From assembly GCA_023247035.1 (NCBI GenBank), contig JAHFHG010000017.1:1-40300 (forward strand): a stretch of 40,300 nucleotides of DNA, read 5' to 3'. The notes under the pieces were generated by a model. It saw only the letters and a program-made list of their open reading frames with translations, ran no database searches and was not told the origin of the DNA. The translations under genes and the position numbers were made by a program. This stretch comes from Candidatus Omnitrophota bacterium (lineage in GTDB: Bacteria > Omnitrophota > Omnitrophia > Omnitrophales > Aquincolibacteriaceae). Shown one piece after another: positions 1,347 to 26,604 of this stretch (the stretch's first letter is position 1; every line of letters starts with the position of its first letter).

Positions 1347-4106
1347 TTACGAGGCGCTCAAAAGTTCCAGCAATTCTTTTTGGGCCTGAAAAACTTTCTC
1401 GGCGGCCTCGAGTTTTTCTTTTTCCTTCTGAACGACTTCCTCCGGGGCGCTGCGGACAAACGCTTCGTTGGAGAGTTTCTTGGACAAAGATTCGATCCAT
1501 ATCTTCGTTTCCACAATTTTCTTTTCAATCCGCTCTTTTTCTTTGACGGGATCAATCACGCCTTCGATGAGGATAAAAACTTCCAAGTCCGGAAACGCAT
1601 TCACAATATAGAAAGGGCTTTTTTTAAAGCTTACACGGACGTCCGCTTCTTCCAGGCGCGCCAGGTTTTGAATTTCTTTTTTATATTCACTTAAAATATT
1701 GCGGATTTCGGCGCGCGGCGAAACTAAAACCGCTCTTAACGGCCGGCCGGGAGACAGCGCCAGCCGGGCCCGGATATCCCGGACTCCCGCGACGCTGGTC
1801 TGAAGCCACTGAATTGCCTCTTCGGCTTTTTGATCCTGAATCTTTTGATCATCCGGCCAACGGCTTATCATAATTGTTTCCGGCCAGGCAGAGTGGTCTT
1901 GGGCCGCGGCTTTGAGCTTTTGCCATATTTCTTCGGAGATAAAAGGCATAAACGGATGAAGCAGCCGGAGAATGCGTTCGAGAAGATAAAAAAGAACCTT
2001 TTGGGTATTTTCCCGCGCCACGGCGCCGGTTTGGAGAAAACTCGGCTTGGCCAGCTCGATAAACCAATCGCAGAAATCGTTCCACACAAAATGATAAAGA
2101 ACAGTCGCGGCCTGGCTCAGATTAAAATTGGAAATGAGCCCATTGATTTCTTGAGTCACTTGGCCGAGCCGGGAAAGAACCCAGCGGCAGGGCAAAGAAA
2201 GCGCGCTGCGGTCTAAGTCAAGCGCCGCCTTTCCTTGGGCGAAATCTTCTAAATTTATAAATGCGAACCGCGCGGCGTTCCAAATTTTATTGGTGAAGTT
2301 ACGGCCCACTTCGAATTTTTCGCGCGACAAATAAACGTCCTGCGCGCTCAGCATCACCATACTGAAACGAAGGGCGTCGGCGCCCATTTCGTCAATCACC
2401 TCAATTGGATCGATCGCGTTGCCTAAGGACTTGGACATTTTGAGGCCGCTTTGAGCGCGAACGGTTCCGTGAATATAAATCCGGCTGAAAGGGACTTCCC
2501 CCATAAATTCAAGGCCGGCCATAATCATTCGTGCCACCCAGAAGAAAATAATTTCAGGGGCCGTGATCAAATCTGAAGTGGGATAAAAATATTTTAAATC
2601 TTCAGTCTGGTTTGGCCAACCGAGAGTCGAAAACGGCCAGAGCCAGGAAGAAAACCAGGTGTCCAAAACATCGGGATCCTGTCTTAAATTTTTGGACCTA
2701 CACACAGGACACTGCTCGGGCGTTTGCCGGCTCACAATAGGTTTTTTACAATCCGGAAAACACAGTTTATCTCCTTCACAGTACCAAACCGGAATCTGAT
2801 GCCCCCACCAGATCTGCCTTGAAATGCACCAGTCGCGGATTTCTTCAAGCCAGTTCGTGTAAACCTTGGTCCAGCGGTCCGGATAAAATTTTGTCTTGCC
2901 CTGGCGGTGCGCAGTGAGCGCTTTTTCCGCAAGCGGTTTCATTTTCACAAACCACTGCTCGGAAAGATAAGGCTCGACCATTGTATTGCAGCGGTAGCAG
3001 TGGCCGACCGCGTGCGAGTGCGAATCGCGGCGGACGAAAAGGCCCTGGGCTTCAAGATCAGCCACGACTTTTTTTCTTGCTTCTAACCGGTCAAGACCTT
3101 GGTAGGATCCGCCCTTTTCATTTATCGTTCCGTCCGGATTCATCACATTAATCTGAGGAAGATTGTGCCGGCGGCCCATTTCAAAGTCGTTAGGGTCGTG
3201 AGCCGGAGTGACCTTGACCAAGCCTGTCCCGAATTCCGGATCCACGAACGGATCTGCAATAATGGGAATCAGGCGATTCATTAAAGGAAGGATTAATTTT
3301 TTTCCGATCAAGTGTTTATAACGCGGATCCTCAGGATGGACTGCGACGGCTGTGTCTCCGAGCATTGTTTCCGGGCGCGTGGTCGCAACGACAATGTGGT
3401 CCTCGCCGATTTTTTCGAGCGCGGATTTTTCAAATCCGGCGAGCTGAGGTTTGGCGAGTGGATATTTAATATGATAAAGGCCGCCTTGAATTTCTTTATG
3501 GGAGGATTCTTCATCGGAAAGCGCGGTCTGGCAGCGCGGGCACCAGTTAATAATGTAACTGCCTCGGTAAATAAGGCCGCGCTCATAAAGCGTGACAAAG
3601 GCCTCGCGGACGGCGCGTGAAAGCCCCTCGTCCATCGTGAATCTTTCGCGGGACCAATCACAGGAAGCGCCGAGCCGCCGGAGCTGGCGGGTGATCGTGC
3701 TGCCGTGTTCCTCTTTCCACTTCCAGACCTCTTCCAAAAATTTTTCGCGCCCGAGATCGCAGCGGGTTTTCTTTTCTTTGGCGAGCTTGCGCTCCACCAC
3801 ATTCTGCGTCGCAATGCCCGCGTGATCGACTCCCGGAATCCACAGCGCGTCCTTTCCCTTCATCCGCTGCCAGCGCGTTAAAATATCCTGAATGGAATTG
3901 TTGAGCGCGTGCCCCATATGCAGGATTCCCGTGACATTCGGCGGCGGGATTACAATCACGTACGGTCTTTTGTCATTCTGAGTGCGAAGTGCGAAGAATC
4001 TCGGATCGTCACTTTTCGGACGAAAATATCCCTTGGATTCCCACAAGGAATACCATTTGGATTCAATATCTTTTGAATTGTAGCGAGGGGTTAATTCTGA
4101 AGACAT
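1347..4106 (-). CDS. valS: Valyl-tRNA synthetase (start likely at MSSELTPRYN, 4106, rather than 4154)
   Basis: PPPNVTGILHMGHALN (HIGH) and KMSKSLGNAIDP (KMSKS) motifs; C-terminal coiled-coil arm. Confidence 0.97.
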   Translation of the reverse strand: MSSELTPRYNSKDIESKWYSLWESKGYFRPKSDDPRFFALRTQNDKRPYVIVIPPPNVTGILHMGHALNNSIQDILTRWQRMKGKDALWIPGVDHAGIATQNVVERKLAKEKKTRCDLGREKFLEEVWKWKEEHGSTITRQLRRLGASCDWSRERFTMDEGLSRAVREAFVTLYERGLIYRGSYIINWCPRCQTALSDEESSHKEIQGGLYHIKYPLAKPQLAGFEKSALEKIGEDHIVVATTRPETMLGDTAVAVHPEDPRYKHLIGKKLILPLMNRLIPIIADPFVDPEFGTGLVKVTPAHDPNDFEMGRRHNLPQINVMNPDGTINEKGGSYQGLDRLEARKKVVADLEAQGLFVRRDSHSHAVGHCYRCNTMVEPYLSEQWFVKMKPLAEKALTAHRQGKTKFYPDRWTKVYTNWLEEIRDWCISRQIWWGHQIPVWYCEGDKLCFPDCKKPIVSRQTPEQCPVCRSKNLRQDPDVLDTWFSSWLWPFSTLGWPNQTEDLKYFYPTSDLITAPEIIFFWVARMIMAGLEFMGEVPFSRIYIHGTVRAQSGLKMSKSLGNAIDPIEVIDEMGADALRFSMVMLSAQDVYLSREKFEVGRNFTNKIWNAARFAFINLEDFAQGKAALDLDRSALSLPCRWVLSRLGQVTQEINGLISNFNLSQAATVLYHFVWNDFCDWFIELAKPSFLQTGAVARENTQKVLFYLLERILRLLHPFMPFISEEIWQKLKAAAQDHSAWPETIMISRWPDDQKIQDQKAEEAIQWLQTSVAGVRDIRARLALSPGRPLRAVLVSPRAEIRNILSEYKKEIQNLARLEEADVRVSFKKSPFYIVNAFPDLEVFILIEGVIDPVKEKERIEKKIVETKIWIESLSKKLSNEAFVRSAPEEVVQKEKEKLEAAEKVFQAQKELLELLSAS
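3971..4005. repeat. Dispersed repeat (gtcattctgagtgcgaagtgcgaagaatctcgg) embedded in frame in valS
   Basis: Same type of sequence as the copies around 20436-20560; encodes the extra PRFFALRTQND segment just before VIVIPPPNVTG. Confidence 0.75.
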
Positions 4107-4286
4107 GGAACTGCGATTGGAACGTTGGATTTCCGCTTCTCTTCCTTCAAGCAAAATGAAAATAATCTATTTTTAACCCAGGGGGCGGATTCAAACGATT
4201 TTAATGCTTTGGATAAAGCTTTATTTTGCATTTTTATTTCAAATCCAAATATTTGGGATCATAAGTTAACTTCATTTGATCCTTTT

Positions 4287-5846
4287 TTACCCCTTCCAGA
4301 GTTTGTACTCGATTGCCTCGACAAGGGCCCGCCAGCTGGCCTCGACCACATTCTCGTGGACTCCGACCGTGGTCCAGGTTTTGTCTTGATCCTGGAATTC
4401 AATAAAGACCCGGACCTTGGCGGCCGTGCCGGCTTCGGAATTGACGACGCGGACCTTGTAATCGGTAAGATGAATCTGATCGATAACGGGATAAAAATTT
4501 CGAAGCGCCTGCCGCAGCGCGCTGTCCAGAGCATTGACCGGGCCGTCTCCTTCGGCGGCGACAAGTTCTTCTTTCCCCTTGGCCACAAGTTTGACCTCCG
4601 CAATCGAAGTGGGCCTCGCGTCGCCGATATTTTCCGCGCGGACAGCGGCTTTCTTGACCTCAAAAAACGGTTTGTATCTGCCCAAAAGTTTTTGGACCAG
4701 AAGCTCAAAACTCGCTTCGGCGGCCTCGAATTGGTACCCCTCATTTTCGAGACGCTGAATCTCAGAAAGAATTTTTCGAGTCTCGGGAGATTCCTTGGCC
4801 AAATCCAGTTGAAGCTCTTTGGCCTTCAGCATAATATTGGTTTTGCCTCCCAGCTCGGAAACCAGAAAACGCCTGTGATTGCCGATCAACCGCGGGTCCA
4901 TGTGCTCGTAAGTGCGGACGTTTTTCATCATCGCATTAATGTGGACGCCGCCTTTATGCGCGAAAGCGGAACGCCCGGTAAAGGGCTGATTGTTCTCAAG
5001 CGGCATATTGCAAATTTCCGCGACGTAGTGAGAAAGCGCCGTAAGCTCGCGGCTTTTTTTTCCGGGGAAACACGCGAGCCCCATTTTAAATTGAAGGATC
5101 GCAATGATGCTGACAAGGTTCGCGTTGCCGCACCGCTCGCCGTAGCCGTTGATCGTTCCCTGAATGAGCGCGCATCCTTCGCCCGCCGCCTGGATCGAAT
5201 TGGCCGCCGCAAGTTCAGCGTCATTGTGGCAGTGAATCCCGAGCGGGACCTTGACGGAACGTTTGACGCGCAGGATCGCGCGCCGGATTTCGTGAGGAAG
5301 CGTGCCGCCGTTGGTGTCGCACAGGGTAATGTTGTCCGCGCCGGCCTTCGCAGCCTGCTGCAGAGTTTTGACCGCGTATTCCGGATTTTCCTTAAATCCG
5401 TCAAAAAAGTGCTCCGCATCATAAATGACTTCAAGTTTTTTAGACTTGAAGTAATCCACGGTTTCATAAATCATCTGCAGATTTTCTTTCAAGGAGGTCC
5501 TAAAAACTTCCGTGACGTGAAAATCCCAGGATTTCCCGAAAATCGTGACGGCTTTCGTGCGCGCTTCAAGGAGCGCCTTCACATTCTGGTCCTCGCTGAC
5601 CTTGATATGCGCGCGGCGCGTCGCGCCGAACGCAACGACCTTGGCGCGGCGGATCCTCGCCTTTTTGATTTCCTTAAAAAAAGCCAGGTCCTTGGGGTTC
5701 GAGCCCGGCCAGCCTCCTTCAATATAATGAATGCCGAATTGGTCAAGGCGCTTGGCGATCAAAATTTTGTCGCGCAGAGACAGGCTGATCCCCTCCGATT
5801 GCGTGCCGTCTCGTAAGGTTGTATCGTAGAAAAGAATTTTTTTCAT
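4287..5846 (-). CDS. cimA: (R)-citramalate synthase
   Basis: FYDTTLRDGTQSEGISLSLRDKILIAKRLDQFGIHYIEGGWPGSNPKD; HMGL-like TIM barrel; HCHND motif; C-terminal regulatory domain. Confidence 0.94.
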   Translation of the reverse strand: MKKILFYDTTLRDGTQSEGISLSLRDKILIAKRLDQFGIHYIEGGWPGSNPKDLAFFKEIKKARIRRAKVVAFGATRRAHIKVSEDQNVKALLEARTKAVTIFGKSWDFHVTEVFRTSLKENLQMIYETVDYFKSKKLEVIYDAEHFFDGFKENPEYAVKTLQQAAKAGADNITLCDTNGGTLPHEIRRAILRVKRSVKVPLGIHCHNDAELAAANSIQAAGEGCALIQGTINGYGERCGNANLVSIIAILQFKMGLACFPGKKSRELTALSHYVAEICNMPLENNQPFTGRSAFAHKGGVHINAMMKNVRTYEHMDPRLIGNHRRFLVSELGGKTNIMLKAKELQLDLAKESPETRKILSEIQRLENEGYQFEAAEASFELLVQKLLGRYKPFFEVKKAAVRAENIGDARPTSIAEVKLVAKGKEELVAAEGDGPVNALDSALRQALRNFYPVIDQIHLTDYKVRVVNSEAGTAAKVRVFIEFQDQDKTWTTVGVHENVVEASWRALVEAIEYKLWKG

Positions 5847-5878: not shown

Positions 5879-6010
5879 GTCATTGCGGGGAGCCCCCAAG
5901 GGACACGTGGCAATCTGACACAAAGTGTCATTCCCGAATGATTCTATCGGGAATCCAAGTCCTGGATTCCCGCTTCCGCGGGAATGACAAACTTGGTCGC
6001 TCGCAATGAC
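5879..6010. repeat. Nested palindromic repeat cluster: outer gtcattgcg...cgcaatgac enclosing gtcattccc...gggaatgac
   Basis: Outer arms 5879-5887 and 6002-6010; inner tgtcattcccg...ggattcccgcttccgcgggaatgaca. Confidence 0.8.
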
Positions 6011-6020
6011 GGACTTGCTA

Positions 6021-7259
6021 CTACCTTTTCTTTACCGAATTCTTCCCGAGCTTGAATTCCCTGTGGATCGCGCGGACCGCTTCCTTTCCTCTTTTGCCGT
6101 CGATCACGCAGGAAATTTTGATCTCGGAGGTGGAAATCATTTGGATATTAATCTTTTTGCGCGCCAGGGCCGCGAACATCCTGGCCGCAATGCCGGAATG
6201 CGACCTCATGCCTATTCCCACGACGCTGACTTTCGCGATATTTTCGTCGCAAACCACTTGTTGGGCTTGAAGTTCTCGGGCGGCTTTCTTGACAACGTGA
6301 AGGGCCCGCGCAAGTTCGTTTTTAAAGACCGTAAAGGAAATATCCGTAGTCTTGGTCTGCGTCTTGTTTTGAATAATCATATCAATATTAATATTGGCTT
6401 TGGCCAGCCGGGCGAAAATTTTTGCGGCGACGCCGGGCCGATCCGGAACCTGATAAATCGTCACCTTCGCTTCGTCCTCGGTCAGGGCCACGCCGCTTAC
6501 CGTAATGTCTTCCATTTTTTGGGTCTCCTTTGTAATCAAAGTGCCTTCTCCGTTGTGCATGGAGTTGCGCACATAAATCGGAACGTTGAACTTTTTGCCC
6601 ACCTCCACCGAGCGCGAGTGCATGACCTTGGCGCCGAGCGAGGCCAGCTCGAGGATCTCTTCGTAGCTGATTCGCTCAATCTTGCGCGCGTCCCGGACGA
6701 TGCGTGGATCCGCGGTAAAAACGCCGTCCACATCCGTGTAAATTTCACAGTGTCGCGCTTTGAGGGCCTTCGCCAGAGCAACGGCCGTAAGGTCCGAACC
6801 CCCGCGGCCGAGCGTCGTGATTTCTTCGGAATCGGTTTTGCCCTGAAAACCGGCCACAATCACGACGTAGCCTTCCTTCAATGCCTTTTGAATGCGCTCC
6901 GTGTTGATATCCAGGATCCGGGCCTTGGTGTGAAATTTATCGGTGATGATGCCGACTTGAGGGCCGGTAAAGGAAATCGCTTTGACGCCAAGCCGGTCAA
7001 CGGCGATCGCCAGCAGCGCGACGGAAACCTGCTCGCCCGTGGAAAGCAGCATATCCATTTCGCGCTCATTGGGTTCCTTCGCAATCTTGTGCGCCAGCTC
7101 AATCAGATCATCAGTGGTATCGCCTAAAGCCGACACCACAACGACAAGCCTGCAGCCTGCTTTCCTTGCCTTCACAATGCGCCGGGCAACGCGCTGGATG
7201 CGCCGCGCATTTGCGACCGAGGACCCGCCGTATTTTTGCACAATCAAAGGAATGCTCAT
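6021..7259 (-). CDS. lysC: Aspartate kinase
   Basis: VQKYGGSSVANARRIQRVA N-terminus, GRGGSDLTAVALA, two C-terminal ACT segments. Confidence 0.96.
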   Translation of the reverse strand: MSIPLIVQKYGGSSVANARRIQRVARRIVKARKAGCRLVVVVSALGDTTDDLIELAHKIAKEPNEREMDMLLSTGEQVSVALLAIAVDRLGVKAISFTGPQVGIITDKFHTKARILDINTERIQKALKEGYVVIVAGFQGKTDSEEITTLGRGGSDLTAVALAKALKARHCEIYTDVDGVFTADPRIVRDARKIERISYEEILELASLGAKVMHSRSVEVGKKFNVPIYVRNSMHNGEGTLITKETQKMEDITVSGVALTEDEAKVTIYQVPDRPGVAAKIFARLAKANINIDMIIQNKTQTKTTDISFTVFKNELARALHVVKKAARELQAQQVVCDENIAKVSVVGIGMRSHSGIAARMFAALARKKINIQMISTSEIKISCVIDGKRGKEAVRAIHREFKLGKNSVKKR

Positions 7260-7271
7260 GACCGGCCACTC

Positions 7272-8471
7272 TTAAGATTTGGAGATGAAAAACTTCAGGA
7301 GCTCCGCCCCCTTGTTCATCTTAAGGGACGAGGCCTTGGAGGCGGTCTCGGAAAATCGCTCGATATCATCGGGCATGATATTTTTTCCGGCAACCACGAA
7401 AGGGACAAAATCGCGGGTCTGTTTTTTTGTCTTCCAAGGAAAACTGTAGCAAGGAGTAATCAAAATCCGGACATCCTTATAAGACTCCATATAATCCTTG
7501 ACCTTCGAAAGGATAAAAAAATCAACGGCCTCGAGGAACGAAACCTTGGCCTTGCAATCTCCTTTTCGGGAAGCCTCGTCGCACTCGTCCAGATAAAGCC
7601 CCACGAAATCCTTTTCTGCCATCGAGCTTGAGATCATCTTGCCGATTTTTTCATACTTCGTTTGTTCGCTCTCCAAGGCCCCGTTGGTTTCGAAAACGCT
7701 TAATCCCGCAATCCGCCCGATCCCTTTGGCGTATTCGGCCTCGGCAAGCAGCGCGCCCGTCAGTCCGAAACGCTCGCTGAATTTTTCAAGCCGCGGCGGC
7801 CGGCCTTGCCCCCACAGCCAAATCATATTGGCGGGATTTTCTTTGAGGTCCACGCGAACCTGATTGATCTCGTGGTCCTGAAGCAGAAGTTTTGTATCGC
7901 ACATTAACTTTTTCAAGAGTTCCTCGCCCGGCCCCTTCGGCCAATAAGCTTCCAAACGCTCGCCCACAATCGTATCCGGAGAATTTGTTTTCGCAGAAAG
8001 CGCCTCAAATCCGTGGGCGTCTTTGATCACGGTAACGTGCCGGCACTCGGCGCCGGCAAAAAAGCGGATAAACTCATTGGCCACTTTTTTATTGAGGAAA
8101 TTGATAAGGGCTTTGGCTTCGCGCGTGGTGATCTTTCCGGCCGTAGGGTCCGCAAGGATCCCGTTGGCCTCGGTAATAAAATTCATCCGAAAGGCGATCT
8201 CGTTGTCCTCAAGTTTCAGTTCCAAATTCGCGGCCTCAAGCGGGCCGCGGCCCGTGTAAACCTTGTCGGCTTCGTAACCCAGAAGGTTCAAGAGCGCCGT
8301 ATCGGCGGAAGGTTCGAGCCGCTCTGCGGCAAGCTTGGCCTGCCCGACCTTGCCCATTTTCGCGAAAAAGTTCAGATGAGGGATCTTCGCCACCTCAAAC
8401 GGAGTTTTCCCTCCGAATTCTTCGGCGGGAGAATCTGCCGCCCCGGGAAGCGCAATCAATAAATATTTCAC
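7272..8471 (-). CDS. ApgM/phosphoglycerate-mutase-like protein (proposed homoserine kinase family in threonine operons), apparently lacking catalytic residues
   Basis: GGKTPFEVAKIPHLNFFAKMGKVG, VYTGRGPLEAANLEL, NPANMIWLWGQGRPP are family hallmarks; GTG start at 8471 (MKYLLIALPGAADSP) fits the family start better than TTG at 8480; located between thrC and lysC. Confidence 0.85.
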   Translation of the reverse strand: MKYLLIALPGAADSPAEEFGGKTPFEVAKIPHLNFFAKMGKVGQAKLAAERLEPSADTALLNLLGYEADKVYTGRGPLEAANLELKLEDNEIAFRMNFITEANGILADPTAGKITTREAKALINFLNKKVANEFIRFFAGAECRHVTVIKDAHGFEALSAKTNSPDTIVGERLEAYWPKGPGEELLKKLMCDTKLLLQDHEINQVRVDLKENPANMIWLWGQGRPPRLEKFSERFGLTGALLAEAEYAKGIGRIAGLSVFETNGALESEQTKYEKIGKMISSSMAEKDFVGLYLDECDEASRKGDCKAKVSFLEAVDFFILSKVKDYMESYKDVRILITPCYSFPWKTKKQTRDFVPFVVAGKNIMPDDIERFSETASKASSLKMNKGAELLKFFISKS

Positions 8472-8513
8472 AAGGAGCAACCTTTCTATTCAAGCTTTGG
8501 ATAGTTTTAGGAT

Positions 8514-8553
8514 TGTCATTCCCGCGTCCGCCAATAATCGGACGGAATGACAA
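8514..8553. repeat. Palindromic repeat ttgtcattcccgcgtccg-N8-cggacggaatgacaa
   Basis: Complementary arms in the thrC/apgM-like intergenic region. Confidence 0.75.
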
Positions 8554-8565
8554 TGGAAATACCTT

Positions 8566-9651
8566 TTACCTCGAAGCGAAAACAACTTTGCTCACAGCCT
8601 CAAAGGTAGGTTCCACAGCCTCAATCTTATCCTCAAAGCTGAGCGCGTAATCCGGATCTTTAAGGCCCGAACCCGTCAAGGTAATGACGATTCTGGTATT
8701 TTCCTCAAAATAATTCCGTCTCGCAAGCTTTATCATTCCCGCAACAGCCGCTGCAGAAGCAGGCTCGGCGAAAACACCTTCCCGTTCCGCAATAAAACGG
8801 TAAGCCCAGCTTATTTCCGGGTCGGTGACCGCTTCGATGAGCCCGCCCGATTCATCCCGGGCCTGGACCGCCCCCTTCCAGCTTGCCGGATTTCCGATCC
8901 GGATGGCGGTGGCAATGGTCTCAGGCTTCTCAACAGGCTTCCCGTAGACAATCGGGGCTGCTCCTTCCGCTTGAAAGCCAAGCATTTTCGGAAGGACTTC
9001 GCATTTTCCCGCACGCCGGTATTCTTTATAACCTCTCCAATAGGCCGTAATATTGCCGGCATTTCCCACAGGGATCGCGTGATATTCAGGCGCGTCGCCA
9101 AGATCATCTACAATTTCAAAGGCGGCGGTCTTTTGGCCTTCAATCCGGTAAGGATTGATGGAATTAACAAGGGTGATCCGGTTGTCCTGCGTCACTCTTT
9201 TGACCAGCTCCAGCGCCTGGTCAAAATTTCCCGGAATCATCAACACCTTGGCCCCGTAGCGGTACGCCTGAATCAGCTTGCCCTTGGCGATTTTTCCTTC
9301 AGGGATCAGCACAAAACACCGAAGCCCGCAGCGCGAGGCAAAAGCAGCCGCCGAAGCCGAGGTATTGCCCGTCGAAGCGCAAATCACGGCGCTCGCCTTT
9401 TCCTCAAGGGCCTTGGAAATGGCCATTGTCATTCCGCGGTCCTTGAAAGAGCCCGTAGGATTCAAGCCCTCAAACTTGTAATAAATTTTTATATTCTTCA
9501 GGCCTAAGTAAACGGGAAGCGCCTCGGCCAGGATCAAAGGGGTATTGCCTTCATTCAGGGAAATGATCGGCGTATTGTCCGTGACGGGCAGAAATTCCTG
9601 GTACCGCTCAATCACACCGATTTTTTTGACTGCGAATTTTTTATGGACCAT
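8566..9651 (-). CDS. thrC: Threonine synthase
   Basis: SLNEGNTPLI, FEGLNPTGSFKDRGM PLP-lysine motif, GNAGNITAYW. Confidence 0.96.
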   Translation of the reverse strand: MVHKKFAVKKIGVIERYQEFLPVTDNTPIISLNEGNTPLILAEALPVYLGLKNIKIYYKFEGLNPTGSFKDRGMTMAISKALEEKASAVICASTGNTSASAAAFASRCGLRCFVLIPEGKIAKGKLIQAYRYGAKVLMIPGNFDQALELVKRVTQDNRITLVNSINPYRIEGQKTAAFEIVDDLGDAPEYHAIPVGNAGNITAYWRGYKEYRRAGKCEVLPKMLGFQAEGAAPIVYGKPVEKPETIATAIRIGNPASWKGAVQARDESGGLIEAVTDPEISWAYRFIAEREGVFAEPASAAAVAGMIKLARRNYFEENTRIVITLTGSGLKDPDYALSFEDKIEAVEPTFEAVSKVVFASR

Positions 9652-9737: not shown

Positions 9738-11033
9738 TCATTGTTCGATTCTTATGACCTGCGAGTGCCCGCTCACGGCATCCAAACGGTCAATCCGCCG
9801 GATCGCATTCCTCACGTCCCGTTCGTGCGCGCCGTGCGTCAATAAAATCAGCGGCACCACGTTGCCCGCGCTTCTTTCTTTCTGAACGCAATCGGAAATG
9901 CTGATCCTGTGCTTTCCGAGGACCTGCGCGATCTTCGCAAGAACGCCCGGACGGTCGACCACATGAAAGCGAAGGTAATAGCGCGATAAAATGGAACTGA
10001 TGTTCTTGATCTTTAAAGGCCGCCGGATCGCCCGCATCGGCAGCGCTTCTTCGTTCAGCCGGCCCGCTTCGCGCATTGCAATATCAATCAGATCGCTCAT
10101 CACGGCGCTGGCGGTGGGCGCGGGGCCGGCGCCTTTCCCGTACAAAAGGACATCGCCGACTTGATCGCCGCGGATCAAAACCGCGTTAAAAGCGCCGTTG
10201 ACGTTGGCCAAAATGTGAGATTCCGGAAGAAGCGTGGGCTGGACCCTTGCTTCAATGCCTTCCTTTGAAGCCTTGGCAATCGCAAGGAGTTTCACCCGGT
10301 ACCCGAATTCATGAGCAAAAGCGATGTCTTCGCTGCGGATCCTGGAAATCCCCTCGCAATAAATATCCTTGAACCGGACATTTCCGCAAAACGCAAAACG
10401 CAAAAGAATCGCGAGTTTGTGGGCCGCGTCGATTCCCTCGATATCTAAAGTCGGGTCCGCCTCAGCGTAGCCTTTTTCCTGCGCCTCCCGCAAGGCCTCG
10501 CGGAAATCACTTTTATCTTCCGTCATCCGGGTCAAGATATAATTGCTGGTTCCGTTGATGATCGAATAAATGGATTCAATCCGGTTCGCGACAAGCCCCT
10601 CGCGCAGGGCCTTGATCACAGGAATGCCGCCCCCCACACTGGCCTCGAAAAAAATCCAGCGCTTCTTCCGGTCCGCCAGATCGAAAATTTCATCTCCCGC
10701 CTCGGCCAGAAGCGCCTTATTTGCCGTAACCACGTGCTTGCCGCGCGTTAACGCCTCGCCAATGAGGGCCTTTGCCTCCCGGATTCCTCCGATAAGCTCG
10801 ACCACGACATCCACGGAGGGATCGCGCACCACTTCAAAAGCATTCTCGGTAAGCAGGGATTTCGGGACGGATTTTTTTCTTTTTTTATCCTTATTCCGGA
10901 CCGCAACTTTGACCAAATCGATCGAAATGCCGATCTCGCGCCTGAAAAAATCCCGTTTGGACGCAAGCAGACTGTAAAATCCGGCCCCAATTTGTCCGAG
11001 CCCCAATAATCCTACCCTGAGTGTTTTCATCAA
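9738..11033 (-). CDS. hom: Homoserine dehydrogenase with C-terminal ACT domain
   Basis: VGLLGLGQIGAGFY Rossmann motif; GTSNYILTRMTEDKSDFREALREAQEKGYAEADPTLDIEGIDAAHK; C-terminal RFHVVDRPGVLAKIAQVLGKHRISIS. Confidence 0.97.
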   Translation of the reverse strand: MMKTLRVGLLGLGQIGAGFYSLLASKRDFFRREIGISIDLVKVAVRNKDKKRKKSVPKSLLTENAFEVVRDPSVDVVVELIGGIREAKALIGEALTRGKHVVTANKALLAEAGDEIFDLADRKKRWIFFEASVGGGIPVIKALREGLVANRIESIYSIINGTSNYILTRMTEDKSDFREALREAQEKGYAEADPTLDIEGIDAAHKLAILLRFAFCGNVRFKDIYCEGISRIRSEDIAFAHEFGYRVKLLAIAKASKEGIEARVQPTLLPESHILANVNGAFNAVLIRGDQVGDVLLYGKGAGPAPTASAVMSDLIDIAMREAGRLNEEALPMRAIRRPLKIKNISSILSRYYLRFHVVDRPGVLAKIAQVLGKHRISISDCVQKERSAGNVVPLILLTHGAHERDVRNAIRRIDRLDAVSGHSQVIRIEQ

Positions 11034-15335: not shown

Positions 15336-16472
15336 ATGCCTCCGAAGATTTTTATGATCGCCTGTGAACCTTCGGGCGACATTCACGGCGATTCTCTGGC
15401 GCGAGAGCTGAAGAAGCTCAGCCCTTCTTGCGAACTCAGCGGCCTCGGCGGCCCTCGGATGAAAGAAGCCGGCGTCGCTTTGCTCTATGATATGACCCGG
15501 ATTTCGGCGCTCGGATTCGGGGATGTCGTCCGCCAGTATTTCACTTACCGAAAAATTTTTTACCAGGCCTTGAACGCGGTGAACCGAAGCCGGCCTGACG
15601 TCCTTATTTTGATTGACTCGCCTGCTTTTAATCTCAGGTTCGCCAAAAAAATAAAAAAGGAACTGCCCGTCATTTATTACATTTCACCGCAAATCTGGGC
15701 GTGGGGAAAGCGGCGGATTCATACGATCAAAAAGACCGTATTCAAAATGCTCGTGATTCTCCCCTTTGAGACCGCGCTTTATGAGGCGGCGGGGATTCCT
15801 TGTGAATTTGTCGGCCACCCTTTGCTCGATCATCTGGATTTGCCCGAAGACCGTACCGCCCTTCGCCAAAAATTGAATATCCATTCCAATGAGACCGCTA
15901 TCGGCCTGCTGCCCGGCTCGCGCGCAAGCGAAGTCCGGCGTATTCTCCCTTCAATGCTGGAAAGCGCACAGCTTCTTCAAAAAAATTTACTGAATGCCGT
16001 CTTTTTTCTCGCTCACTCTCCGAATGTGAGTCCGGATATTTATGAGACTCTAAAAAAGGAATACCCGCAAATCCGGCTGAGGTCTCATAAAGACTCCATC
16101 CATTCCCTGCTGGCGGCAATGGATTTTGCGCTGATCGCTTCGGGGACGGCAACGCTTGAAGCCGCGCTGATCGGAACTCCCTTTTTCCTTCTCTACAAAA
16201 CAAACTGGTCGACCTATTGGTTAGGAAGATGTTTGATCCGCGTTCCCTATTTGGGAATCGTGAATCTTCTGGCCGGGAAACGGGTCGTCCCGGAATTCAT
16301 TCAAAGAATTTCTCCTGCAAAGATTGCGCACGAAGCGGAAGCGCTTTTAAAGAATGCTGAGCTTTATCAGAAAATGAAAAAGGAATTTGCCGCGGTGCGC
16401 GGAAAATTAGGAGACAAGGGCGCAAGCTCCCGCGCCGCTTGCGCCATTTTGAAGGGGATTAAGCAGCTCTAG
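15336..16472 (+). CDS. lpxB: Lipid-A-disaccharide synthase
   Basis: ACEPSGDIHGDSLARELK, SPQIWAWGKRRIHTIKK, VGHPLLD, LLPGSRASEV. Confidence 0.96.
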   Translation: MPPKIFMIACEPSGDIHGDSLARELKKLSPSCELSGLGGPRMKEAGVALLYDMTRISALGFGDVVRQYFTYRKIFYQALNAVNRSRPDVLILIDSPAFNLRFAKKIKKELPVIYYISPQIWAWGKRRIHTIKKTVFKMLVILPFETALYEAAGIPCEFVGHPLLDHLDLPEDRTALRQKLNIHSNETAIGLLPGSRASEVRRILPSMLESAQLLQKNLLNAVFFLAHSPNVSPDIYETLKKEYPQIRLRSHKDSIHSLLAAMDFALIASGTATLEAALIGTPFFLLYKTNWSTYWLGRCLIRVPYLGIVNLLAGKRVVPEFIQRISPAKIAHEAEALLKNAELYQKMKKEFAAVRGKLGDKGASSRAACAILKGIKQL

Positions 16473-17183
16473 CGAACGCGACGGTTCGCTCGTAGCGATC
16501 CCGCCACGAATCCGTCACGGAGCGACGAATAATGACAACCCGCCTTTGATTATCGAAAGCCGCGTAAGGGGGCAAGTCCTTATATTTGCCGTAAAAAGAA
16601 ACGGCCTCTAATCCCGCGCCAACCGTCCCAGCTTGACCAACTTCATCAGCCAAAAGATAGGTTCGGTCTTCGTCAATGCCGGCTTTTCTCAATTCCGACC
16701 GGAGCAGAGCAGCTTCAGCCGGAGAGGCCTTATCGGAAAGTACGACGACTTTTCCTTGATCGCCTGTGAGATATTTTCGAAATGCCTCCGCCAAGCCGCC
16801 GGATTCGGTAATGAGCCGACCCTTTAACTTTGGATCATTCGATAAAAGCTTTCCCACCGGATCAGTCGTGTTGACGTTATAAACAATAACTTGCCTGCCC
16901 TGAACCGCAGCCGTATAAATGAGCTCTCTAAGCTTGCCGTCAGAGCCTTGGATACGGTTGAAATCCGCAACCACTCTCTCAACGCCGAACGATTGCCGCG
17001 TTGTTTGCTCTATACGTCGCACTTCTTCAGACCTTCGACGCAGCGCCTCTGGCGCTTTGCTCAGGTCAAGAGCACTCAGCCCTGGGTCCGACAAGCTCGG
17101 GATTGAACCCTCCACTGATTCGTTGGCAGGCTCGCCTACAACCTGGCGGGCAAGCAGGCGGACTTGCTTGCCTTCTTTTTGGC

Positions 17184-17199
17184 TAGCTTCGGAGCGGGC
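17184..17199. repeat. Partial copy of gcacttcggagcggg repeat (encodes ARSEAS)
   Basis: agcttcggagcgggcg; compare 17841, 18671, 19690. Confidence 0.5.
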
Positions 17200-17240
17200 G
17201 ACAGCTGATTTTGGCTTTCGTCCTTGGGGAGAAAATGTGG

Positions 17241-17246
17241 TATACT
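17241..17246 (+). promoter_or_regulatory. Extended -10 (TGgTATACT) upstream of antitoxin
   Basis: gtggtatact 24 bp before the antitoxin ATG; aggaggt SD between them. Confidence 0.45.
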
Positions 17247-17269
17247 TCGGTTTGTCAGGAGGTAAAGAA

Positions 17270-17530
17270 ATGTCGCTTTTAAAAGGATTATCCGATGAAA
17301 AAGTCGTTGTGTTGGGACGACGGAAACTGCCTTTTGCTTTAGAAGGGATTGTGCGGCTTGTGGACAGCAAAGGTCGTACACTTGGCATTGTTTTAGATCC
17401 TCGGATTCTTTCTGATATTGAAGAAGAAATAGAAGTATCCTCGCCTGAATTTTTGGAATCGCTTGAGCGTTCCAGGGCCTCAGGCCGAGTGGCTGGTGGA
17501 TTAGTCAGAAAAAAATCCGGCTTGAAATGA
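17270..17530 (+). CDS. Putative antitoxin of a RelE-type TA module
   Basis: ATG at 17270 preceded by aggaggt SD; 86 aa; overlaps the toxin start by ATGA; family not identified. Confidence 0.75.
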   Translation: MSLLKGLSDEKVVVLGRRKLPFALEGIVRLVDSKGRTLGIVLDPRILSDIEEEIEVSSPEFLESLERSRASGRVAGGLVRKKSGLK

Positions 17531-17784
17531 CCCCATATGATTTTACCCGCCAGGCGGAGCAAATGTTCCTGAAACTTCCCAGAGATCTCCAGCAGCGAAT
17601 CCTGCGTAAAATCGAACATTACCTTGCCCAGCCCAATCCCCTGGTCTTTGCGAAACGCATTGTAGGAAGCTCTGTCCCCGCTTACCGTTTTCAAGTTGGA
17701 GACTATCGCGTCGTTTTCGACTGGGAAGGTGACCGTATTTTGATCACGAAGGTTGGACACCGGCGCGAGATTTACCGCGGTTAA
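17527..17784 (+). CDS. RelE/ParE superfamily toxin
   Basis: FTRQAEQMFLKLPRDLQQRILRKIEHYL ... YRFQVGDYRVVFDWEGDRILITKVGHRREIYRG. Confidence 0.9.
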   Translation: MTPYDFTRQAEQMFLKLPRDLQQRILRKIEHYLAQPNPLVFAKRIVGSSVPAYRFQVGDYRVVFDWEGDRILITKVGHRREIYRG

Positions 17785-17840
17785 GTCAGAAACTGGACTC
17801 TCAACTGCAGACGGCCTTCCGCCTTCGGCCTGCTTTTGTA

Positions 17841-17860
17841 TCCGCACTTCCGAGCGGGAT
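17841..17860. repeat. gcacttcggagcggg repeat copy (encodes SRSEVR on minus strand)
   Basis: tccgcacttccgagcgggat. Confidence 0.6.
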
Positions 17861-18670
17861 TGGGGAGGAGTTACCGTTATCTGGAACGGCCGTCTACCCG
17901 CTCGTACATAACTCGAGTCTCTCTCACGCCTGTCCTGCACATAACTCGGCTGAATTCTTTCGTGAATTTCGTAGTGGAGACTAGGCATGATTGTTAATCC
18001 AAAATCTCCATATTGTTGTTCCATCTTTTTAACATCCGTTACCACTTGCCGTATCGTTTCAAGTGAAAGCCCGTCGATTTCTTTGATTAAATCTGGCTCT
18101 TCCCGGATTTCTACTTTTTTCTGCCTGAGTTTCTTCCCTATTTTTTTTCCTAGTCCCAGTTTGGTTGTGGTTAACCGTATGAATTTACCTTGAGTCACTC
18201 TTCTTTTAATTTCTCGCAGCACTTCTGCACTTTTATGAAAGAACGGCAATGATGACCCTTCCGAACTTACCGAAGTCTCAGTTCCCATATCGATGGAATC
18301 AGATTGTTCTTGCGCAAATTCCAGGCGATCGATCAATGCTAATGCCTGCTGCAAATGATTCTGAGCTTGTTGGATATGGGAGACTTCTTTCTTTATCTCT
18401 CCTGCTTTCTTCAAGATTTTTGCCAGGAGCTCCACAATTCCTGTCAGAAACTCTGTAACCTCTCGGATATCTCCGACAGTCATCGTGTGGTCTGGAGGGA
18501 AAAGCCCGTACGCAAGTCTTTGAGCTAAACGCTCTGAAAGAGAATCAATCTCATTGCCATAACCCTTTTCATATATTCCCCATTCGTGCGCATCAAAAGC
18601 GCGTCGAAGTTCATCGTAAGTCTCCGAAGCCTTTTGTGTAATGAAAAGAAGCGCTTTCTTAATTTTTGCC

Positions 18671-18687
18671 CGCACTTCGGAGCGGGA
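18671..18687. repeat. gcacttcggagcggg repeat copy (encodes SRSEVRA)
   Basis: cgcacttcggagcggga. Confidence 0.6.
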
Positions 18688-19689
18688 GGCGACGATTTGA
18701 AAGGACTCTTCTCTGAAATCCCATTTTCTTTCTTCCAAAATTTGATCCCCATTTCTGAAAACAAGCTGAATTTCTAGGCCAGAAACTTCCTCCGAATAAT
18801 CCCCGCTCAGAGAGGCAACTGCTTGAGGGTGTGTTTTGTCAAATTCCTGTTTCTGCCTGAGCGCCAGTTCTAACACGCGGAGAAAGGAAACTAACGACCT
18901 TTCGGTAAGTCCAAACCGATCTCTAAGCGTTCTCCAAACATCCCTAAGACCGATTTCTTTATAGCCGGCTTCTACAAGCTAAATTATCAACTCACGAGTT
19001 TCTCTATAGTTTATGAAGTCATAATGAATAATACTTGTGAAAGAGTGCAACTTTTTATGATCCCAATCATAATGGCGAATCTCAACGGAAAGATCTTTTG
19101 CTGTAAGCGGTTCCTTCTTGTCTTCGTCCGCAGAGAAAATAATTTCGACAATCCTATCTTCCTCACCCATTCCATGCCAAAGAATCTCTTGCACGAAATC
19201 GAACATAAGATCGCGCGTATTCGAATCATGAGAAAAATAATCGAATACCCTTCTTAAGATGAGAATTTTTGCTTCTTTTGGTTCAGTTTGTCCCTTAACC
19301 CCATAAGGCATCCAGACAACCTCAAAGCGGGTCTTATGGGTTTCTATCTCTTGGATGGTCTCTTTTTTTTCCTGGCTGGTTTCGGCAAATAAGACGGCGT
19401 TAAGATATCTGGGCGCAAGTCCTGACAAAAAATGATCTCCGGCTAAAAGGAGGGCCAGTTCTTCAAGCTCTTCATCTGGAAGTTCGGCTAACTTGGATAA
19501 AACAGGATGGATGATTGCGAACTCGCCTTGCTTTTCTGGAAGGTGAGTTCTATTGAAATTTAACCATCTTATAAATACTCCTTTAAGCGTCTCCCGGTCG
19601 TAGGCAAATTCTTCCCCATCAATGGCTCCTAAAAACCGCTCCAACGTCTCTTTTTCTAATGGGTCCATCCATTCAGGCCATTCTTGCGT

Positions 19690-19705
19690 CCGCACTTCGG
19701 AGCGC
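19690..19705. repeat. gcacttcggagcg repeat copy (encodes LRSEVRT)
   Basis: ccgcacttcggagcgc. Confidence 0.6.
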
Positions 19706-20435
19706 AAAGCGGCCGGCGGCGGTTTGAGTTGTTCGTCCACGAGCCTATTCAATAGCGGCAAGGCCAAATCTTTATTTCTTGCGACGATTGAACTCAAAGC
19801 ACGAAGTTCTGCCTGGACGGGCCGCGGGCCTAAAATTCTCCCCCTCAAAAAATCAGACGGAGCTCTTCTTGCTCTTGCCAAATTCACCGCCACTTCAAAA
19901 GGATAAGAACCCATCGACATTAAATTTTTATAGTAATCCTGATGCCTGGGGCTGACCGAAGTAATTGCAGGCGTAAGAATGAGGTAGGATAAATTTTTGG
20001 CCCTGAGAATCCGCTTAATTCCGTCTTTATGGAAGCCGCCGAAGACTAAGACCGCAGCCTCTTCATTTTTATTCTTCAAAAATTCATCCAAGGCCTTTCC
20101 AAGGGACTGTTCCCCCGCTTGGGCTAATTCGTAGAATTTGATCGCGTTTCGAATATTCCGCTCCCAGCGCTTGAAGAGAACGACCGGCTTGTTCGCCGTC
20201 TTGGCAACAAAATCGGCCAAATCATCGGTATTTAATTTTTGGAGATTACCTTTAACGGCCTCAAACTCTGTGGGTGTCAGTTGGATTTCTTCCAGGCGCC
20301 TGAGAAGCTCGAAACCTTTGTAGTATTGAAATATCTTTTTGTCTTGCTCGTTTTTGAGCTGCGTACTTGCGTAATCATTTTCCAGCCGCTCAATTTCTTG
20401 AAATAAAATTTTGGGATCAACGGCCAAGCGTACGT

Positions 20436-20560
20436 CATCCTGAGGCGCAGTCGAAGGATCTTTCTTTTGAGATTCTTCGTGGTTCGACAGGCTCACCACC
20501 CTGAGCGAAGTCGAAGGGCTGAGCGTTTTGGGTCGAAGGACTTCGCTCAGAGTGACGCGG
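20436..20560. repeat. Composite repeat: cgtcatcctgaggcgcagtcgaaggatc ... gtcgaaggacttcgctcagagtgacg with inner ggttcgacaggctcaccaccctgagcgaagtcgaaggg
   Basis: Terminal inverted arms, inner related palindrome; coincides with the frame change. Confidence 0.75.
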
Positions 20561-20870
20561 ATGAGGAGATAGAATTAAATCGACATTAGGGTAACGGGTT
20601 TGAAACTCTTGAGTAGGAATGTGCTTTGCCGAGAGGTCTTGAATACGTTTAAGGTAGCCCCGCAAGTCGAGCTGGCTTGCAACGAGTCTTTCTTTGAGCT
20701 TCATCCATTCCTTGAGTTCTTTGGAAAAGCGTTGATTCGCCAATTTTGAAATTTCACTTTGGCCAGAGCCTAGGTCTTGCCGGGTTTCCCGGCTAAGCGC
20801 TGCAGCTTGGCGGTAGCGCTCAATGCTCTCCAGATGCAGCTTAATATTGTCCACACCGATGAGTCTCCAA

Positions 20871-20921
20871 TCTCCCCTCACCCTTCCCTCTCCCCCACGG
20901 AGAGGGTTGGGGTGAGGGTGA
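20871..20921. repeat. Palindromic repeat ctcacccttccctctcc...ggagagggttggggtgag, in frame in coding sequence
   Basis: Nearly complementary arms; encodes PHPNPLRGGEGRVRGD. Confidence 0.8.
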
Positions 20922-21506
20922 AAGCGATTGATATGCGCGTACTCGGCGCCGCCGATCCTAAGTTTATCCATTAAAAAGTAAGAGACCTTTTCTTTGACCA
21001 CAGGATCTTTAATGAATCCAAAATACTCATCCGTAGGAACGGGGCCTTCGTAGCCTTCTTCGTAGACCGTCTTGATGCCGTACGTTTCGACAAGGTGCGT
21101 GATCGTCTTGGCGATATTCTCTTGAGCTTCGAGGGAATCGTGGGCGTCTTGGATATAAAGGATTGTTTTGCCGGAGGAGCCTTGAAAGGATTCTTCGATC
21201 TCGCCTAATTCTTGGGGAAGGGAAATATCAGAAGGTGAGAAAGCAGGAATATTTCTTTCTGCATAAGCCGGCGTTTGTGAAAAAATTAAGGAGCAGGACA
21301 GAACAAAAGAAACGAACTGATTCCAAGAAGAATTTTTTTTATGGCTCGGCATTTGGGATAGACCCTCCGAAAGAATTCGGGCAGCAAAATTTAACCGATT
21401 GCCTTTTAAATTGCAATCCTTTTAAAGAGGGAAAAAGCACTTCGGTGAGAGATTCAATAGCGATGACTTGGAATGCTCAAAAATGCTAGGAAAAGTAATG
21501 CGCTAC

Positions 21507-21984: not shown

Positions 21985-24096
21985 TTAAAGTTTGAATAAC
22001 ATCTCCGCATAAGAAGGCACGGGCCACAATCTTGCCGGCGCCAGTGTTTCCAAGGCGTCAATATCCTTGCGAAGTTCGCCCATTGCAGGAAAAACTTTGT
22101 CCCGATACGCTTCAGCCCGGTGGAGGGCTTCATGGACGGATTGCGCTTTCTTAAGGACGGCGTCGAGGACGTCGAGTTTCTTGCTTGCAGACTCAAGGAG
22201 CTCCGAGATCCGCGTCAGTAAATTCTTTTGAACGCTTGCGGAAGCTGAAACGGCCTTGAGCTTTGAAACCGTCTCGGCGAGCTCTGCGGTATACATAATG
22301 ACCGAGGGGATATAAAGCCTCCGCACCATATCCATCGCGGCCAAGGCCTCAATATTGATGTGCTTCGCGTACTGCTCAAGGTAAATTTCGTAACGGGAAT
22401 GCAGTTCCTCTTTCGTGAGGACTTTATATTTTGTGAAAAGTTTGACGGCAGACTCATTCGCCATATAACCCAGGGCTTCAACGGTCGACTTAATGTTAGG
22501 GAGCCCCCGCCTCTTGGCCTCTGCGACCCATCCTTCAGCATAATTGTTCCCGTTGAAAATGACCCGGCTGTGCTTGCCGGCCACGTCTTTCACAATGGCC
22601 GCGGCTTCCTTGTTGATATCCTTCGCCTTTTCAAGCCGCGCCGCCACCTCATCAAGCGCCTCCGCCACGATCGTATTGAGCACCACATTCGGCCCGGAAA
22701 TAGACGCCGAAGAAGGGACCATTCGAAACTCAAACTTGTTTCCCGTGAATGCAAAAGGAGAAGTCCTGTTCCGATCCGTATTGTCTTTGGGAAGCTCAGG
22801 CAGTGTGTCCACGCCGATATTCAGACAGCTCTCGCCCCTCGATTGAGCTTTTTTGCCTTTCGCCAGATTCATTAAAATTTCAGTCAACTCTTCGCCGAGG
22901 AAAATCGAAATGATCGCGGGCGGGGCCTCATTGGCGCCCAGCCTCAAATCATTTCCGGGATTGGCGGCGCCGGCCCTGAGTTTGTCCGCATGTTTGTCGA
23001 CCGCCATAATAAGGGCGGATAAAAAAAGAAGGAACTGCTCATTGTCGTGCGGCGTGTGGCCCGGATCCAATAAATTAGTCCCATCGTCCGTCATCAGCGA
23101 CCAGTTGTTGTGCTTTCCCGATCCATTGACGCCGGCATAAGGTTTTTCGTGAAGAAGGCACACGAGATCATGCCTCAAGGCGACCTTCTGCATACTTTCC
23201 ATCACAAGCTGATTGTGATCCGTTGCAATGTTCACGCTGGTGAAAACAGGCGCCATCTCAAACTGTGCGGGCGCAACCTCGTTGTGCTTTGTCTTGGCCG
23301 AAACGCCCATTTTCCAAAGTTCGGTATCGAGGTCCTTCATGAATTTTGAGATCCGGTCCTTGATCGCCCCAAAATATTGGTCTTCAAGTTCCTGGCCCTT
23401 AGGGGCAGGCGCGCCAAACAAAGTACGCCCGGACGTGATCAAATCCAGGCGCTGATCGTAATACTTTTTATCGATCAAAAAATATTCCTGTTCCGGACCC
23501 ATCGTGGGGAAAACCCGTCTTGAGGTTTTATCTCCCAACGCCTTTAAAACCCGCAGGGCGTGCTTGGAGACAGCTTCCATCGAACGCAGAAGCGGCGTCT
23601 TTTTATCCAAAGCTTCGCCGGTATAAGAGCAAAAAGCCGTGGGAATCGTCAGCGTCAAATTGCCTGCCGCGTCTTCTTTAAGAAAAGCAGGCGAGGTGCA
23701 GTCCCAAGCCGTGTAACCACGCGCTTCAAAAGTGGCGCGGAGACCGCCGCTTGGAAACGAAGAGGCGTCCGGCTCGCCCTTGATAAGCTGCTTGCCGGAG
23801 AACTCCATAATGACGCTGCCTTCCGGTGTGGGAGAAATGAAAGAGTCGTGTTTTTCCGCGGTCTTTCCCGTGAGCGGCTGAAACCAATGAGTATAGTGCG
23901 TCGCGCCTTTCTCAATCGCCCAGTCCTTCATAGCATTAGCCACGACATTGGCCACTTCAAGAATCATGGGCGCGCCCCTTTCAATCGTTTCGCGAAGGGC
24001 TTGGTAGGTTTCCTTGGGAAGCCTTTCTTTCATTGTTTTGTCATTGAAAACATTGGAACCGAATATTTTTGTTGCGTCCATCGTGCCGTTATTCAT
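21985..24096 (-). CDS. glnN: Type III glutamine synthetase (GlnN family)
   Basis: 703 aa; [53 protein letters not shown]. Confidence 0.96.
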
Positions 24097-24993: not shown

Positions 24994-26604
24994 TTATTTA
25001 ATCTCGTAGTTTTTAATTTTGTAGCCCAAGATACGTTCGGTTAATCCCAAAACTTGGGCCGCCTTGCGCTGATTGCCGCCTGTTTTCTCGAGGGCCTGCC
25101 GGATCATTTTTTTCTCCATTTCAGCGATCAGTTCAGGAAGAGGCCCCTCAAAACCTTCAGCCGCGGCCTTTGGAGATTGCGGGGATACCGGATTTTCAGA
25201 AGAACCCTGAAAATTCTTCTTGATTCCCGGAATGGGAAAAATATCCGGCGTAAGCGTGTCTGTTGTGGAAAGAACGACCGCCCGCTCCACTGCATTTTCA
25301 AGCTCGCGGACATTTCCCGGCCAGGAATAATTCATGAGATATTGCATTGCGGCATCGGAAATATACTTCACATTTTTCCGGTTTTCTTGATTCGCCTTTT
25401 GAAGAAAATGGTTCACGAGCAGAGGAATGTCTTCCTTCCTTTCCCGTAAGGCGGGCATAAAAATGGGGATCACATTTAACCGATAGTAGAGGTCTTCGCG
25501 AAAGTGCCCCACCTGAACCTCGGCCTCTAAATCTTTATTCGTCGCCGTAATCAACCGGATATTCACGCGGACGGTGTGCGTCCCCCCGAGCCTTTCAAAT
25601 TCTTTTTCTTGAAGCACGCGCAGGAGCTTGACTTGAGTGCTCGCAGGGATATCTCCGATCTCATCCAAAAATAAAGTCCCGCCGTGGGCCATTTCAAAGC
25701 GGCCGATTTTGGTCGCGCCGGCGCCCGTAAAGGCCCCCTTTTCGTAGCCGAACAGTTCACTTTCAAGGAGGTTCTCGGGAAGGGCCGCGCAGGAGATCTT
25801 GATAAAAGGGCCGTCGGCGCGGTCGCTGTTGTAATGAATCGCGTGAGCCACAAGCTCTTTGCCCGTTCCGCTTTCGCCGCGGAGGATGACGGTAGCGCGC
25901 GTTTGGCTCACAAGCTCAATGGAAGCATAAACGTCGGCCATCCGCTTGCTTTCACCGATAATATTGGCGGGATGGAATTTTTTCTTAAGCTCCTGCTTCA
26001 GGAGAATGTTCTCATTGGCGAGCTTCTCTTTTTCCTTTTCGTGAAGCTGGTGGATCCGGACGGCCTGGGCGACCATCGAACTGATAATCGTAAGAAGGCG
26101 GACATCCTCCTCAAAGGAAATATTTTCCTGAAAAAGGCGGTCGACGCTCAGCGCCCCAATGGCTTTCTGGTCCAGCTTGATGGGGATACAAATGAAAGAA
26201 ATATTGCTTCGTTTAAGGTCCCCGCGCGAGCGCGTGCGGTTCAAAAAAAGAGGCTCATTGCCGACGTTGGGGACCACAATAGGCTCACCGGCCTCAATCA
26301 CTTTTCCCGTAATCCCTTCGCCGATCCGGTAGCGCCCGCGCCCGATGGCCTCTTTATCCAAGCCGTGCGCCAGCTCAATCACACACTCGCCCGTCTTCGC
26401 GTCTAAGAGCGTCAAAGTTCCCCGCTCCATGCCCATCTTCTCGTGGAGAATTTTCATCACCTGGCGCATTACGCCTTCGAGATTCACCGAAGAGTTTATA
26501 GCTTTGGAGATTTCATAAAGAGTGCCCAGTTCGGCAAGCTCGCGTTTCAGGCCCGTGACGGAATCCTTATGATTCTGGGCCTCCGAAGATGTCTTTTTCA
26601 TCAT
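24994..26604 (-). CDS. NifA-like sigma-54-dependent activator (GAF-AAA+-Fis HTH)
   Basis: N-terminal GAF region; Walker [23 protein letters not shown]-terminal [27 protein letters not shown]. Confidence 0.95.

Follow-up and report, generated by a model that had tools for sequence, protein, structure and literature searches.

A Threonine-Operon Protein of the ApgM Type with a Dismantled Active Site in Omnitrophota: Probably a Retained Pseudoenzyme

Gene order and reading frame

The window (the whole stretch of DNA analysed, 40,300 nucleotides of a Candidatus Omnitrophota genome) was found to carry on its minus strand the gene order hom-thrC-X-lysC-cimA-valS, in which X (7272..8471) encodes a degenerate ApgM-type protein (PGMx). 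The genes for homoserine dehydrogenase (hom; 9738..11033), threonine synthase (thrC; 8566..9651, next upstream of X) and a monofunctional aspartate kinase (lysC; 6021..7259, next downstream) were assigned by profile matches. Those for citramalate synthase (cimA; 4287..5846) and valyl-tRNA synthetase (valS; 1347..4154), both conserved neighbours, were assigned by a profile match together with locus comparison. A preliminary description of this DNA had given the order hom-thrC-X-lysC and an open frame for X; both were borne out, the minus-strand frame being uninterrupted from its best start, GTG at 8471 with AAAGG upstream, to the stop codon at 7272-7274. An in-frame TTG upstream at 8480 is a possible alternative start. 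The gap between thrC and X is larger in the window than in most relatives; a palindromic repeat (TTGTCATTCCGTCCG...GCGGGAATGACAA) lies in it at 8512-8562, and a similar core is present at 5976-5988.

As a replacement kinase beside the operon, the recurrent ORF directly upstream of hom was considered and rejected, since it is small, divergently read and carries no kinase hallmark; no other recurrent candidate kinase was found next to the operon. Elsewhere in the window, three adjacent minus-strand ORFs (805, 506 and 305 aa; 16459-21352) gave no Pfam match. A type III glutamine synthetase (21985-24096) is adjoined by a GAF-sigma54 activator (24994-26604), and an LpxC-FabA/FabZ-type fusion (28272-29567) is located in a lipid A cluster with an LpxA-like acyltransferase, LpxI and Omp85 nearby.

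Profile matches, catalytic residues and predicted structure

The window protein matched TIGR00306 (apgM) over its full length (positions 1-403 of 403) with 347.5 bits against a cut-off of 320. It missed the cut-offs of TIGR02535 (337.1 vs 446.3 bits) and NF003242 (347 vs 426 bits); intact slot proteins from two other loci (L029 and L039) scored 545 and 564 with TIGR02535, above its cut-off. No nucleotide-binding family was recognised in the window protein by Pfam or NCBIfam.

Seven residues, the six metal ligands and the nucleophilic Ser, were scored by alignment to PDB entries 2zkt, 3kd8 and 3idd and to 56 intact orthologues of the phylum; window numbering is that of the 402-residue protein. 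Every substitution listed in the preliminary description was confirmed, six of the seven residues being replaced. The metal-ligand Asp of the DGM motif is P12 (codon at 8445..8447, like all following on the minus strand) and the nucleophilic Ser is A59 (8304..8306). D301 (7578..7580) is the sole residue retained, and the DExGH motif of the intact family reads DEASR, with R305 (7566..7568) in place of a metal-ligand His. The metal-ligand Asp-His pair is replaced by C344 and Y345 (7446..7451), and the last metal-ligand His by Q354 (7419..7421). The two-metal site (Asp, Asp/His, Asp/His, His) is incomplete in the window protein, with five of its six ligands replaced, and the nucleophile is absent.

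AlphaFold (AF2) models reached a mean pLDDT of 93.3 (window protein) and 95.7 (its intact sister). The best PDB match of the window protein was 2zkt_B (TM 0.79/0.83), and 2zkt was also the best match of the sister. The catalytic positions fall on corresponding secondary-structure elements in the two models, so the substitutions are no alignment slip. The earlier suggestion of an intact fold with lost catalytic residues is supported by these values, and by profile and fold the window protein is, by descent, a member of the ApgM subfamily TIGR00306.

Passing of the TIGR00306 cut-off is also what would lead automatic annotation to name the protein a phosphoglycerate mutase. That it works as one is hardly credible, however, with the nucleophile gone, a single metal ligand left and a separate dPGM (TIGR01258) matched above cut-off in 27 of 27 genomes of the window's family; a glycolytic role was rejected on account of this dPGM. 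The mutase name transferred via TIGR00306 is almost certainly wrong for the degenerate proteins. The dPGM of the window's own genome (G000, contig C19, 2570-3166) appears as two adjoining match pieces with a profile gap and a stop in the second, and represents either a short-form protein or an assembly error.

Distribution and phylogeny of the degenerate proteins

By contig scanning, 80 loci were collected, nearly all of them labelled Omnitrophota, from genomes that appear to be metagenome-assembled; the gene order was alike in most loci with enough sequence. The loci split in two: L005-L028 were 52-70% identical with disturbed motifs, and L029-L084 were ca. 40% identical with intact motifs. 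Within the window's taxonomic order (48 genomes), four families (f1, f2, f5 and f62) have a degenerate slot gene; an intact one occurs in f3, f4 and a single genome of f7. The degenerate gene stands between thrC and lysC in those clade loci that reach far enough to show both.

From the four families, 34 degenerate slot proteins were counted, which keep 0-4 of the seven residues. All seven are present in 56/56 of the intact slot orthologues sampled elsewhere in the phylum, in 5/5 intact orthologues of the order and in 13/13 of the second copies described below. In the tree the 34 proteins are monophyletic (100/100) and sister to the intact slot protein of one genome, G044. The preliminary description had proposed a search of related genomes for the same substitutions; catalytic loss proved common to the 34 slot orthologues. 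It had also named neutral decay of a single copy among intact close relatives as the outcome that would speak against its reading; this was not what was observed, since the close relatives too have lost their catalytic residues and are constrained.

In the numbering of an intact protein (L151, the slot protein of G044), Asp341 is missing from 34/34 degenerate proteins and His302 from 33/34, with Arg in its place in 30. Loss of the first Asp is confined to f1 and f62, and the Ser was lost in 19/34 (it is present in the other 15). From this unevenness, the losses look stepwise. The replacing residues vary: the first Asp column holds A, D, P, S or Q, the second G, L, C, A or N, and R305 (30/34) is the only newly fixed residue among the former catalytic columns. 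Other residues invariant in the intact proteins, presumably of the pocket to judge from the fold, were kept rarely (H113 in 5/34, H166 in 2/34 and K276 in 9/34). Arg144 was retained in 30/34 and Arg206 in 34/34. Ser, Asp298, His342 and His351 are all still present in 6/34 proteins, and some members of the clade may have weak residual chemistry on this account.

A separate slot loss was placed on the tree in family f7 (G080, L170), where one of the seven residues is left in a protein sister to an intact f7 protein. Further independent losses may exist among other low-scoring members of the phylum.

Selection and shift of constraint

For close pairs of degenerate proteins, dN/dS (Nei-Gojobori) was 0.03-0.11, within or near the range seen in those genomes for hom, thrC and lysC; single ratios are rough, as dS exceeds 1 in many close pairs. 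Between the window gene and its nearest relatives, pN was 0.20-0.23 and pS 0.74-0.80. The dN/dS comparison, a check proposed in the preliminary description, indicates purifying selection on the protein. With essential residues lost across 34 orthologues that are under purifying selection, the degenerate protein is probably a pseudoenzyme; the earlier reading to this effect gains support from the clade-wide loss of residues, the retained fold and these ratios.

A pseudogene or an assembly artefact in the window's genome was also considered, and one relative (G025, L204) does have a slot gene whose match is interrupted by a TAG close to the end of the contig, together with an apparently frame-broken hom, by decay or assembly error. 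We regard this explanation for the window gene as extremely improbable, and rejected it, since similar substitutions recur in many independent assemblies with open frames and strong purifying selection; it is contradicted by the clade-wide loss, the tree and dN/dS.

Ten genomes contain both a degenerate slot protein and an intact second copy. Overall the degenerate copy has diverged faster among them, with a mean identity of 0.58 against 0.67 for the intact copy and the lower value in 45/45 (non-independent) pairs. In the cap domain the degenerate protein had the higher identity (0.68 vs 0.56), and in the core the intact copy (0.52 vs 0.71). The cap/core boundaries were set by us, and the Ser-helix region was merged into the core after a first look; in an exploratory circular-shift test, 13/395 shifts equalled or exceeded the contrast. 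Intact proteins have 90 invariant positions, of which the degenerate clade retained 43 and did not retain 47. The best conserved stretch of the clade is a near-invariant hinge/cap segment, DHEINQVRVDLKENPANMIWLWGQG (residues 202-226; 7803..7877, minus strand, by alignment). By this exploratory comparison, it is now the cap domain and hinge, and no longer the catalytic core, that are the better conserved in the degenerate clade.

Homoserine kinases in the genomes

The preliminary description had remarked on the absence of a GHMP thrB from the window. This absence extends to the whole genome, in which the two weak GHMP matches are IspE (L003, by profile) and an HddA-type kinase (L004). Neither GHMP ThrB (TIGR00191) nor ThrB_alt (TIGR00938) was found above cut-off in any of the 27 genomes of the window's family. 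A hidden GHMP ThrB was rejected on the weak TIGR00191 matches that were classified, namely the two just named and six in relatives that are IspE-like by reading of their sequences. ThrB_alt was rejected likewise, with weak matches only, mostly inside giant ORFs; those in relatives (L207-L212) lie in open frames of ca. 2,600 to 14,300 residues, i.e. giant proteins.

Across 342 genomes of the phylum, an ApgM-type match was present in 336 and a GHMP ThrB above cut-off in 3, a co-occurrence pattern which supports the ApgM-type enzyme as the probable homoserine kinase of the phylum. One of these 3 is G055 (family f6; L169, L206), which alone among the surveyed genomes of the order has a GHMP thrB above cut-off. 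Its slot protein shows another separate loss, with 5/7 residues kept (TTDHDHH) and the first Asp and the Ser gone, as would be expected if the slot enzyme was a homoserine kinase.

Second intact copy and degenerate-only genomes

A second TIGR02535 copy (L001) was found on contig C52 of the window's genome, with 7/7 residues and a score above the TIGR02535 cut-off. It belongs with the window protein to the ApgM-type family, is 32% identical to it, falls in a separate clade (100/100) and, unlike it, lies outside the threonine operon. The intact second copies form one clade (100/100) found in f1, f2 and f62; the 13 copies are from the ten degenerate genomes with both copies (the window's included) and three further genomes of the same families. 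They mostly adjoin the same aldo/keto reductase gene. Membership of another threonine cluster was considered and rejected, as the neighbours, this gene included, indicate no clear pathway.

The original activity in the window's genome may thus be covered by the intact paralogue. One alternative builds on this: the L001-type paralogue (elsewhere an unrecognised kinase) would have taken over the activity, leaving the slot protein a minor part such as stabilising other operon products. In its favour is the intact paralogue (7/7 residues, and for L001 a score above the TIGR02535 cut-off) of the 13 genomes just listed. A function that matters is indicated instead by the preservation of 400-codon frames in 34 sequences and by dN/dS as low as that of thrC and lysC, and we consider this alternative quite unlikely.

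Cover by the paralogue does not apply to the 24 genomes in which the degenerate copy occurs alone. As 12 degenerate-only genomes of f1 are at least 90% complete, missing data are unlikely to explain all of the absences. One of the 24, G020, is without the usual second copy, and its contig C22 carries another ApgM-type protein (L185), which is very divergent and has 7/7 residues; in the others the degenerate protein is the sole ApgM-type homologue. These genomes pose the chief problem for the interpretation, since phosphohomoserine must be made in them either by a kinase that escaped recognition or by the degenerate protein itself.

According to a further alternative, the degenerate protein would still be a homoserine phosphotransferase, acting by a direct transfer that needs neither metal nor phosphoserine, with the intact copy dispensable or otherwise employed. 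In its favour, the 24 genomes retain hom, thrC and lysC wherever their contigs cover these genes, and no ThrB or ThrB_alt passes its cut-off in the window's family. Altered substrate use by ThrC was rejected: its residues at three sites set it apart from most of the phylum, but they are also found in eight sequences of the intact lineage, and with no clade-specific change ThrC presumably still uses phosphohomoserine. In the old active site Arg305 is newly fixed, and Arg144 and Arg206 are kept. The former catalytic columns, on the other hand, mostly drift, and no new set of residues emerges from them; most members have lost H113, H166 and K276, and Pfam and NCBIfam recognised no nucleotide-binding family. 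We hold this alternative to be unlikely, and the narrower proposition that in the 24 degenerate-only genomes the protein is a homoserine phosphotransferase without two-metal site or phosphoserine intermediate to be slightly less likely still. If true, metal- and phosphoserine-free homoserine phosphotransfer would be a mechanism new to the alkaline phosphatase superfamily.

Proposed explanation

The reading preferred here, with a probability of roughly 0.68, is that the gene is a vertical descendant of the ApgM-type enzyme of the slot, that its active site was dismantled and that it is kept as a pseudoenzyme probably acting by binding. The ancestor would have been an ApgM-type (TIGR02535-like) enzyme of the hom-thrC-X-lysC slot, widespread in Omnitrophota and likely a maker of O-phosphohomoserine. 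As alignment and tree show, its two-metal, phosphoserine active site was dismantled in the common ancestor of the four families. The intact TIGR02535 paralogue at the second locus was probably present early, since it is common to three of the four families, and probably relieved the slot copy of catalysis. The slot protein would then have been retained under purifying selection as a pseudoenzyme.

We infer that phosphotransfer activity was lost in the degenerate slot protein. Because constraint is found on the cap and hinge, not on the catalytic cleft, the protein most likely acts by binding, either to a neighbouring enzyme of the aspartate pathway (ThrC, Hom or LysC), which it would scaffold or influence allosterically, or to a pathway metabolite as its sensor; the role and the partner are proposed from sequence comparison. 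That the catalytic columns drift, that H113, H166 and K276 are mostly lost and that constraint lies on cap and hinge makes a non-catalytic role likelier than new chemistry. The preliminary description had offered a regulator or scaffold and a kinase with different chemistry as possible functions. The former would fit; the latter received no positive support, as R305 alone is newly fixed among columns that mostly drift.

The clade bears on the debated question of whether TIGR02535 proteins serve threonine synthesis as homoserine kinases or in another role. A slot orthologue that is dismantled and still constrained suggests that a non-catalytic role beside ThrC and LysC is possible for the family, and the clade supplies a natural catalytic-null version for testing such a role. 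It also exposes a pathway gap, namely about two dozen genomes with hom and thrC and no recognised homoserine kinase.

Comparison with known systems

No prior report of a degenerate TIGR02535/ApgM slot protein was found in the openly accessible literature that was searched. A known relative is BT2402 of Bacteroides thetaiotaomicron (TIGR02535), which is needed for threonine-free growth, yet does not complement E. coli thrB (GapMind, PMC7311316), and which was named ThrB2 from genome context (PMC9026213). A TIGR02535 protein was also proposed as the threonine kinase of cobamide synthesis (PMC4285132), so more than one function is conceivable for the intact second copy.

With the "proposed homoserine kinase" family TIGR02535/PRK04200 (NF003242), of which BT2402 is an example, the window protein shares the fold, full-length homology and a threonine-gene context. 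The intact slot orthologues of Omnitrophota exceed the TIGR02535 and NF003242 cut-offs, whereas the window protein lies below both, and the zinc sites conserved in BT2402 (PMC9765024) are lost in it. The archaeal ApgM phosphoglycerate mutases (2zkt, 3kd8, 3idd; TIGR00306) are its best sequence and fold matches; unlike them, the window protein is without a complete metal site or nucleophile, and its organism has a separate dPGM. GHMP ThrB (TIGR00191) carries out the pathway step proposed for the intact slot orthologues with an unrelated fold.
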